Positions 3,172 to 7,042 of a DNA stretch of 7,042 nt are shown piece after piece. The position numbers and the translations under genes were made by a program. Position 1 is the stretch's first letter; each line of letters starts with the position of its first letter. The stretch lies in assembly GCA_021788565.1 (NCBI GenBank), contig JAJYKO010000284.1, positions 1-7,042 of the forward strand, read 5' to 3'. The DNA comes from Chloroflexota bacterium. GTDB taxonomy: Bacteria; Chloroflexota; UBA6077. Under the pieces are notes generated by a model that had not been told where the DNA came from, made no database searches, and saw nothing but the letters and a program-made list of their open reading frames with translations.

Positions 3172-3198
3172 GTAGGGCAGGGTCTTGTGCCCTGCCGC
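3172..3198 (+). repeat. GTAGGG palindromic repeat, copy 1 (forward)
   Basis: This short hairpin unit starts GTAGGGCAGGG and ends GCCCTGCCGC. Its stem is GGCAGGG (3176-3182) with CCCTGCC (3190-3196), seven pairs closing a 7-base loop. Related units occur at 3217-3242 (inverted), 5826-5852 (forward) and inside mtaB at 6364-6391 (inverted). No U-run follows the stem, so it is not a canonical intrinsic terminator. Confidence 0.75.
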
Positions 3199-3242
3199 AA
3201 CTGATGGGAAGGAGAAGCGGCAGGGCATAAAGCCCTGCCCTA
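3173..3242 (+). promoter_or_regulatory. Long inverted repeat with a Shine-Dalgarno sequence in its loop, upstream of prmA
   Basis: Copies 1 and 2 of the palindromic repeat face each other and can form one stem of 26 positions: 23 Watson-Crick pairs, two G-U pairs and one mismatch. The 18-base loop (3199-3216) contains GGAAGGAGA (3207-3215), the only strong Shine-Dalgarno-like sequence before prmA. If instead copy 2 folds alone, GGAGA is left about six unpaired bases from ATG 3243, with the small hairpin between them. The two foldings are mutually exclusive. An effect on prmA translation is inference; only the pairing and the purine-rich loop are directly visible. Confidence 0.4.
3217..3242 (-). 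repeat. GTAGGG palindromic repeat, copy 2 (inverted)
   Basis: This is the reverse complement of copy 1 at 23 of 26 positions. Its own stem is GGCAGGGC (3219-3226) with GCCCTGCC (3232-3239), eight pairs around the loop ATAAA. It ends at the base before ATG 3243, the outermost candidate start of prmA, so it occupies the place where a ribosome binding site would normally lie. Confidence 0.75.
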
Positions 3243-4149
<907 letters not shown>

Positions 4150-5825: not shown

Positions 5826-5852
5826 GTAGGGCGGGGACTAGTGCCCCGCCGC
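5826..5852 (+). repeat. GTAGGG palindromic repeat, copy 3 (forward)
   Basis: In the 105-bp gap before mtaB, a unit begins GTAGGGCGGGG and ends GCCCCGCCGC. It matches copy 1 at 22 of 26 aligned positions. The stem is GGCGGGG (5830-5836) with CCCCGCC (5844-5850). Position 5833 is G and its partner 5847 is C, whereas copy 1 has A3179 and T3193 at the same places, so the pair is conserved although both bases differ. There is no U-tract after it. The rest of the gap to 5920 shows no other clear element apart from AGGA at 5907-5910 ahead of mtaB. Confidence 0.7.
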
Positions 5853-5920
5853 CCGTTGCACAACAAGGACGCCGGCGAGCGTATCATCACGCCCATGATC
5901 CTAGACAGGAACGCAACTTC

Positions 5921-7042
5921 TTGAAGCGAATACTCACAGCCTCCATCGCCACCCTTGGCTGCAAGCTGAACCAGAGCGAAAGTGACGAGATGGCGCGCGA
6001 ACTCGCCGAGGCAGGGGTGGATATCGTTCCATTCGGCCAGCCGGCCGACCTCTACCTGATCAACAGCTGCACCGTCACCCACGTGGGTGACCGCAAGTCC
6101 CGCCAACTGATCCGCCAGGCGGCTCGCGCCAATCCCGACGCCTTCATCGCCGTGGCCGGCTGCTATGCCGAACTGGAGCCGGAGGCCGTCTCGGCCATCG
6201 AGGGGGTCGCGGCCGTGGTCGGCAACGCCGGCAAGAGGCGGCTAGTGGAGTCGCTACGTGGGTATTCGCTGGAACTGGGGACGGACGACCGCGACCACGA
6301 TGCGGGGACCGACGTAGGGGCCGGCGGCCCTGCCTGCCCGCCAGGCGCGTTGCCGACGGGGACGCGGGCGGGTACAGCGCCCCGCCCCTACAAGTTGGAT
6401 GGTGGCGGCAGCCAACCCCCAACTCCCAACCCCCATCCCCCATCCCACACCCGTGCCTTCGTTAAGATCCAGGAGGGGTGCGACAACCGCTGCGCCTACT
6501 GCATCGTCCCCAAGGCGAGGGGCCACCAGCGCAGCCGGCCGGCCGAAGACATCCTGGACGAGATCCGCCGCCTTGTGGCCGAGGGTTGCCATGAGGCCGT
6601 TCTGACCGGCGTGAACATCACCGCCTACGATCGCGACCATGGGTCGCCCACCGCTTTAGATGCAGCCCACGGCGCTGGCCTGATACGGCTGCTGGATCGA
6701 ATCCTTTCGGAGACCGACATTCCAAGGGTGCGTCTCTCCTCGCTTCAGCCCGAGGACTGGAATCCCCGCTTCTACGAGCTCTGGACCACGGGCCGGCTCT
6801 GCCGCCACCTGCATCTCTCCCTCCAGAGCGGGTCGGATGCCGTGCTCCGCCGCATGCGCCGGCGCTACAACACAGGGCGGTACGCGCGAATCGTTGAGGA
6901 GGCCAGGCTAGAACTGCCCGACGTCGCGATAACTACCGACGTCATCGTCGGCTTTCCCGACGAGTCGCACGAGGAGCATCAGGAAACGGAAACATTCCTT
7001 CGTTCTGTCGGTTTCGCGGGACTCCACGTCTTCAAGTACTCT
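5921..7042 (+). CDS. mtaB: tRNA (N6-threonylcarbamoyladenosine(37)-C2)-methylthiotransferase MtaB, 3'-truncated
   Basis: MtaB is a radical-SAM enzyme with two iron-sulfur clusters that converts t6A37 of ANN-decoding tRNAs to ms2t6A. The frame is open for 374 codons to the window edge. The N-terminal UPF0004 domain has its three cluster cysteines: TLGCKLNQSE (C14), INSCTVT (C50) and AGCYAEL (C81). The radical-SAM motif is CDNRCAYC (C187, C191, C194) with IVPKARG, followed by LHLSLQSGSDAVLRRMRRRY and DVIVGFPDE. TTG 5921 is chosen because no ATG, GTG or TTG lies in frame upstream in the gap, the first in-frame ATG is past the C14 motif, and AGGA (5907-5910) lies ten bases before. The linker of about 60 residues between the two domains (about 115-176) is unusually long, rich in Gly and Pro, and built partly from repeat DNA. 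The end of the radical-SAM domain and the TRAM domain lie beyond the window. Gene order after dnaJ-prmA-rsmE supports MtaB over MiaB or RimO. Confidence 0.92.
   Translation, partial: MKRILTASIATLGCKLNQSESDEMARELAEAGVDIVPFGQPADLYLINSCTVTHVGDRKSRQLIRQAARANPDAFIAVAGCYAELEPEAVSAIEGVAAVVGNAGKRRLVESLRGYSLELGTDDRDHDAGTDVGAGGPACPPGALPTGTRAGTAPRPYKLDGGGSQPPTPNPHPPSHTRAFVKIQEGCDNRCAYCIVPKARGHQRSRPAEDILDEIRRLVAEGCHEAVLTGVNITAYDRDHGSPTALDAAHGAGLIRLLDRILSETDIPRVRLSSLQPEDWNPRFYELWTTGRLCRHLHLSLQSGSDAVLRRMRRRYNTGRYARIVEEARLELPDVAITTDVIVGFPDESHEEHQETETFLRSVGFAGLHVFKYS
6314..6391. repeat. Palindromic repeat element inserted in frame in the mtaB linker
   Basis: A 78-bp block is bounded by GTAGGGGC (6314-6321) and its exact reverse complement GCCCCTAC (6384-6391). 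Its right part, 6364-6391, is an inverted member of the GTAGGG repeat family, with stem GGGCGGG (6366-6372) and CCCGCCC (6381-6387). Its left end forms a smaller hairpin, GGGCC (6318-6322) with GGCCC (6326-6330). Two inward-facing GTAGGG ends around a short core is also the plan seen before prmA. The block equals exactly codons 132 to 157 of mtaB (GTA to TAC), so the reading frame is kept. No target duplication is obvious. Origin by insertion is inferred from similarity to the intergenic copies. Confidence 0.65.
6412..6452 (+). repeat. C-rich low-complexity block in the mtaB linker (G-quadruplex-prone on the minus strand)
   Basis: Six runs of three to five C (6416-6420, 6425-6427, 6430-6434, 6437-6441, 6444-6446, 6450-6452) are separated by AA, AT, AACT or ACA-type spacers. 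The complement has six G-runs with loops of two to four bases, which meets the usual G-quadruplex pattern. The block is translated as a Pro-rich stretch, roughly QPPTPNPHPPSHT, just before the conserved radical-SAM domain. It lies 20 bp from the palindromic block. Confidence 0.7.

Follow-up and report, generated by a model that had tools for sequence, protein, structure and literature searches.

The window analysed here is a 7,042-nucleotide stretch of DNA from a Chloroflexota bacterium (contig JAJYKO010000284.1), the right end of which is occupied by mtaB, the gene for the tRNA t6A37 methylthiotransferase. This gene, identified from its open reading frame, homologues and Pfam domains, begins with a TTG codon on the forward strand (5921–7042) and continues past the window end. 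Its product has a UPF0004 N-terminal domain at residues 8–101 (5942–6223, forward strand; PF00919, E = 2.7e-23) and a Radical_SAM domain at residues 182–359 (6464–6997, forward strand; PF04055, E = 2.4e-26). Both domains keep their six cluster cysteines, as the first-pass annotation of this DNA had stated; C50, C81, C187, C191 and C194 are invariant, and C14 nearly so, in a 30-row alignment. Within the gene lies a 78-bp palindromic block, GTAGGGGC...GCCCCTAC (6314–6391, forward strand), with perfect 8-bp terminal inverted repeats. The same annotation had placed this block flush with codons 132–157, adding 26 Gly/Pro/Ala-rich residues to the linker in an intact frame, and this is correct when mtaB is counted from the TTG at 5921: the reading frame is free of stop codons through the block, which, given the limits of the two Pfam domains, sits between them. 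Residues 127–173 have pLDDT values below 50 in an AlphaFold2 model made with 30 sequences (mean 77.7), and the linker around the block is predicted to be disordered. The same linker contains a C/A-rich low-complexity stretch (6414–6446, forward strand, read from the sequence) that appears to resemble intergenic sequence. Immediately 5' of the insert, GGGGAC.GACG occurs twice in 6277–6314, 27 bp apart, and is translated as GTD...GTD; this pair may be a local duplication, and the related protein P0001 has one GTD.

The most fitting reading of the block is that two GTAG-tagged REP elements form an inverted dimer, their hairpins facing each other. The left REP (6314–6342, forward strand) consists of GTAG, an 8-bp stem with one mismatch, a 6-nt loop and a GCC tail (the hairpin scan gives 6314–6339, and the tail was read from the sequence). 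The right REP (6364–6391, reverse strand) consists of GTAG, a perfect 7-bp stem (GGGCGGG/CCCGCCC) and an 8-nt loop; the scan, which required stems of at least 8 bp, reported nothing there, and this REP was recognised by eye and by its match to a copy in another genome of the phylum, G019 (below). GTAG stands directly before a short hairpin in both halves (left by the scan, right by eye), and GTAG tags at both outer ends give the block the inverted-dimer form of the GTAG REPs. The whole block strand folds into one long hairpin (-54.4 kcal/mol, z = -3.48), and 1 of 200 dinucleotide shuffles folded as well.

There are two further copies between genes of the window: an inverted dimer after dnaJ (3172–3243, forward strand, from the sequence and an inverted-repeat search), whose left tag is GTAG and whose right tag is degenerate (TTAG), and a single GTAG REP directly upstream of mtaB (5826–5854, forward strand, from the sequence and alignment). 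The dimer contains GTAGGGCAGGGTCTTGTGCCCTGCC, which is identical in 24 of 25 positions to two copies in the relative genome UBA6077. The block had been called a clear member of this intergenic family, and that claim survives in part. The GTAG tag and G-rich hairpin are common to them and the block aligns with the copy at 5826–5853 (6 of 500 shuffles align as well), but 142 of 500 shuffles align as well as the block does with the dimer at 3172–3243, so the case for kinship within the window is more architectural than sequence-based.

We searched 400 genomes of the phylum with an 86-bp query, scoring at most the best two candidates per genome. At least 25 of the 400 match at E = 1e-3, in pieces only, and there is no full copy of the block among the matches listed. 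The firm matches outside the window are in G019 (28 bp at 96% and 42 bp at 86%) and G005 (32 bp at 91%, twice). The right REP, taken as the reverse complement of the block's right half, equals the G019 copy in 27 of 28 bases; that copy adjoins a Y1_Tnp (RAYT-like) gene (PF01797), and an inverted GTAG hairpin lies on the gene's other side. Y1_Tnp genes are present in three of the five genomes searched, eight genes in total, and four of the eight have inverted GTAG REPs on both sides (judged by eye from GTAGGG matches), which is the arrangement published as the REPtron (PMC3733652). These double-flanked genes are in UBA6077 (G001, L202:1372–1965), G019 (L203 and L205) and G005 (L200).

The MtaB linker was compared with those of a close set of 26 proteins (P0001–P0026, 59–75% identical over MtaB), of which P0019 was viewed at the DNA level and the rest as protein. 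The clean 26-codon gap that the first-pass annotation had looked for in close orthologues is not seen: P0003, the nearest MtaB outside the linker (83%), retains the seven residues VGAGGPA that open the block but has neither the remainder of it nor the low-complexity stretch that follows. VGAGGPA is also present in P0001, together with RPYKL of the block end, and neither peptide is found in P0002, P0006 or P0021, though these belong to the same six-row clade (support 98/99). Nor do all close orthologues have the same linker, the outcome that had been named as counting against an insertion; the linker differs among them. AAGF.LR in P0006 and P0016 is read, from the peptide, as another GTAG-type repeat, and other close linkers have PTLS..ERG, SPQGKG or PLPLGEG peptides. 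In UBA6077 (L001, G001), the nearest relative viewed as DNA, the same linker contains a 205-bp array of CCCTCTCCC/GGGAGAGGG palindromes, another dispersed family. A search of that genome with the array gave at least 80 matches at E = 1e-3 among the best 40 of 196 candidates; these reduce to at least 44 distinct places because palindromes match on both strands, that is, the array itself and at least 43 others. Repeat filling is seen at the DNA level in one relative (UBA6077) and by peptide in some others.

Linkers of the 27 close MtaBs (window included) are 48–109 amino acids long (median 71), and those of 60 more distant MtaBs are 47–82 (median 56); our linker parser handled 88 of 122 proteins, the 34 missed by its pattern being distant ones. 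Among 79 further loci 34 were tried, and the 15 that parsed have linkers of 49–69 amino acids. A search of the class found MtaB (E = 1e-75) in two of 29 genomes, UBA6077 being the only clade member. When linkers were labelled by eye, with "none seen" given to ten rows, the five labels required nine changes on the tree, with a minimum possible of four and a mean of 13.8 for shuffled labels, so they are more clustered than shuffles. Exact 6-residue words taken from translated intergenic repeats of UBA6077 are present in eight of the 27 close linkers (7/26 without UBA6077's own; mean of 500 shuffles 1.2, most 5) and in 3/60 distant ones, one identical word in all three. The corresponding figures for 5-residue words are 18/27 (shuffle mean 9.2, most 15) and 10/60 (mean 6.6, most 15). 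Alignment of linker peptides against shuffles gave z of at least 3 in four of the 27 close linkers, UBA6077's own included, and in none of the 60 others; the window linker, at z = 1.8, falls below 3 in this test. Judged from these sequences, the MtaB linker is hypervariable in the clade and is apparently filled by different repeat families. Some relatives fill this linker with repeats of quite other kinds, so the position appears to be one where mobile DNA has landed repeatedly.

The repeats were surveyed in 1.606 Mb of UBA6077, about 27% of the genome, comprising long contigs and contigs already known to hold repeats; because the contigs were chosen partly for their repeats, the densities are not representative. 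Genes were called with an in-house caller (83% coding), and the calls are supported by Pfam domains beside or spanning the inserts. In the 1.6 Mb, GTAG precedes a perfect 8-bp GG-stem 63 times, and each of the 11 other arrangements of these four letters does so 0–4 times. The perfect GTAGGG hairpins (n = 64) include 52 that are intergenic, seven at gene edges, one at a gene end and four internal to genes; with overlapping hits on both strands merged (n = 58) the numbers are 48, five, one and four. The four internal ones fall in two doubtful genes. These REPs are therefore mostly intergenic in UBA6077 (59/64, or 53/58 merged), as are the window's two further copies. A scan allowing one mismatch was rejected as too permissive in UBA6077 (GTAG scored 15.7 per thousand tags, other tags 7.7–10.2); in G005 and G019 the other tags scored equal or higher, and the perfect-stem test replaced the scan in UBA6077 only. 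The bulk of the in-gene repeat copies in UBA6077 belong to a CTCTCCC family that lacks the GTAG tag, with 60 regions in the 1.606 Mb (35 intergenic, 22 internal to genes, and three at edges or ends). Its in-gene copies are read as PLPEGEG, SPRERARVRG or TLTLSRGERE, differing peptides from differing frames; the frame is not set by the element, which speaks against a selected peptide.

Sixteen UBA6077 genes with in-frame inserts could be placed by Pfam, with the domain gaps typed by hand. In a strict count, with HypF and an unclear FAD/ferredoxin protein entered against, the insert lies between Pfam domains in 8/16, whereas the proportion of interdomain residues would predict 2.5 (P = 3e-4). Bare Pfam envelopes give 10/16 (P = 1.6e-6), and an earlier list of 15 hosts gave nine in gaps (P = 1.3e-5). 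The between-domain hosts are MtaB, RimO, CydC, CydD, FtcD, a LivM-LivG fusion, PriA and a BcrAD/DUF2229 protein; the insert is not between domains in an SbcD-like protein, two DUF2298 proteins, AIRS, a PMT-like protein, DnaE and HypF, and its placement is unclear in the FAD/ferredoxin protein. Inserts thus also occur inside domains (the SbcD-like protein, AIRS, the two DUF2298 proteins and probably HypF). HypF has two inserts, the larger of which was entered in the test, and it seems, from a partial match in two stretches, that its YrdC domain is split by the insert. Internal CTCTCCC matches were found in 16 genes; the one in RimO spans 15 bp and looks like chance, and RimO therefore entered the count by virtue of its GTAG REP. 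Left out of the test were C32:82559–84220 and C85:133452–136094 (Pfam hits only beside the repeats), C85:136124–137692, C62:17901–19199 (a GTAG hairpin with one mismatch), genes whose only matches are short and belong to no named family, and two genes with another repeat. In these last two, for MutS2 (C62:29383–31770) and a radical-SAM/SPASM protein (C16:126198–127454), the repeat is of low complexity and lies in frame, its translation being SITHHSSL or PSLITHH.

The clearest example of an empty site is provided by RimO. In UBA6077 it carries a GTAG REP, with one stem mismatch, in the linker equivalent to that of MtaB; this linker is 66 residues long, compared with 40–42 in 20 of 23 close relatives (47, 51 and 86 in the remaining three), and the extra length contains GTAGGGGAGGGGCTTGTCCCCTTCC...CGCCCTAC. 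The neighbouring cydC and cydD genes of UBA6077 (C13:33676–37502) have palindromic repeats at the same spot, between the transmembrane and ATPase domains, and the CydD linker has 82 residues, the median for 118 homologues being 46. The 6-residue word test gives no support outside UBA6077 in the close RimO set (1/24, UBA6077 itself) or in CydD (4/118; shuffle mean 2.0, most 9). The other RimO linkers scored 17/96 (shuffle mean 2.3, most 8), 15 of the 17 through one homologous word, RSVVQG. P0122, a copy of the UBA6077 RimO that is short at its N terminus, and P0243, a 1067-residue fusion, were left out of these word tests; the idea that P0122 is a frameshifted RimO copy was dropped. P0334, from another organism, has a CydD linker of 102 residues, PSPQPPLSL...PFPSKGEG...SPFPEREGGQG, which is repeat-like by eye.

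GTAG REPs, which consist of a GTAG tag and a hairpin, form inverted dimers and flank RAYT genes, have been reported from Chloroflexi (Di Nocera, De Gregorio and Rocco 2013, PMC3733652). Some of them lie in frame in genes, where dimers or grouped repeats encode 20–30 residues, and flexible linkers or loops have been proposed as neutral sites for such intragenic REPs (PMC3733652). These three points, in-frame intragenic copies, 20–30-residue groups and tolerance at linkers or loops, are already known. The first-pass annotation had suggested a system separate from the palindromic elements of Rickettsia; as intragenic GTAG REPs are already published (PMC3733652), the block fits that superfamily and is not a separate system. 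Its other suggestion, that an intergenic-type palindrome has come to lie in frame at a tolerant site as the Rickettsia elements do, is borne out by the position between Pfam domains and by the differing linkers of close orthologues. Rickettsia palindromic elements are about 150 bp long and encode a conserved peptide (Ogata 2000, 2002, cited via PMC3733652 and PMC10969869), and RPE-4 and RPE-6 have been classed with CGTC repeats (PMC3733652). The mtaB block is like them in being a palindrome in frame within a protein at a tolerated site, as theirs are in unrelated proteins. It differs in having GTAG tags, and the in-gene copies of UBA6077 differ in frame and peptide; the lack of a conserved peptide among hosts was assessed with the CTCTCCC family of UBA6077 and not with copies of the window element. 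The enterobacterial RU/ERIC MITE-like units (103–168 bp; Delihas 2007, PMC2759123) are likewise intergenic repeats found in frame in genes, but they are longer than the block and their abstract names no GTAG tag. The nearest precedent for repeated filling of one site is in the recB genes of Xanthomonas, where different REPs occur at about one site (PMC3733652). Relative to the published passages on GTAG REPs (PMC3733652), our observations go further in that, across a clade, one conserved interdomain linker has repeatedly taken up repeats of different families, and that between-domain inserts are counted in one genome. Reports of repeats in MtaB or in Chloroflexota linkers were not found among the papers listed in searches of open-licence literature.

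We consider it very probable that a GTAG REP dimer was inserted into mtaB, is translated and is tolerated there, and that the linker has been hit recurrently by unrelated repeat families, followed by decay or replacement. A RAYT-type tyrosine transposase would have copied the dimer, as a miniature element, into mtaB, and the insertion would have fallen between the two domains with a length that is a multiple of three and a frame without stops. Copies out of frame or within folds would be lost by selection, and the mtaB copy would have stayed because the linker is disordered and the frame open, to be read as Gly/Pro/Ala-rich residues. The MtaB linker of the clade would go on receiving repeats of unrelated families, to decay or be replaced in turn. 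We infer the insertion itself, the RAYT as mover, the near-neutrality and these steps of movement and selection from a pattern consistent with spread by a RAYT, or in some similar way, and survival where a linker tolerates the insert; one relative genome, UBA6077, supplies most of the genome-wide evidence. Counting against this reading are the lack of a clean empty site among the close MtaBs, the rarity of GTAG REPs inside UBA6077 genes, where most in-gene copies belong to the untagged CTCTCCC family, the few linkers (not the window's) that reach z = 3 in the alignment test, and the RimO and CydD word tests outside UBA6077.

The block had been described as domesticated, a word that implies use; the way the linker turns over points to tolerance instead. 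A use can be imagined, in which the mRNA hairpin slows ribosomes between the domains or the Gly/Pro linker tunes their spacing. The hairpin is indeed very stable (z = -3.48) and exactly between the domains, and the VGAGGPA start is common to P0001 and P0003. On the other hand, linker length and sequence vary widely in close relatives, 19 of the 27 linkers have no 6-residue word of known repeats, and UBA6077 inserts also occur inside domains, so functional co-option seems improbable to us. Pro/Gly-rich linkers are common, and it might be argued that slippage of GC-rich codons in a drifting flexible linker has produced a likeness to repeats that is only apparent, the more so as the block aligns with the window's dimer at 3172–3243 no better than shuffles do and the alignment-versus-shuffle test does not single out the window linker. 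Such drift would have to account for the 8-base terminal inverted repeats, for GTAG at both ends, for 27 of 28 bases in common with the RAYT-side copy of G019 and for a clear dispersed repeat in the same MtaB linker of UBA6077, and is very unlikely. An assembly chimera or a broken mtaB is scarcely credible, given the open frame, the intact domains and cysteines, the match of the best relatives over the whole length and the inserts in the same linker of an independent assembly (UBA6077).

Palindromes within proteins are best known from Rickettsia, with scattered REP cases published (PMC3733652). This Chloroflexota lineage offers the same phenomenon with its probable mover close by; the household enzymes concerned have relatives of solved structure (MiaB and RimO), and one linker has several different fillings. 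Comparing many natural fillings of one enzyme makes it testable whether such peptides are tolerated or used. More speculatively, and we regard it as rather doubtful in this full form, the interdomain linkers of the lineage (most clearly in MtaB, RimO and the ABC exporters) could be a standing landing zone that turns intergenic palindromes into protein, with recurrent insertion and replacement, not point mutation, driving the linkers and the hairpin perhaps pausing ribosomes.

Elsewhere in the window, a 29-nt imperfect inverted repeat (72%) at 515–575 lies upstream of an MFS-like transporter ORF and is unlike the GTAG hairpins.
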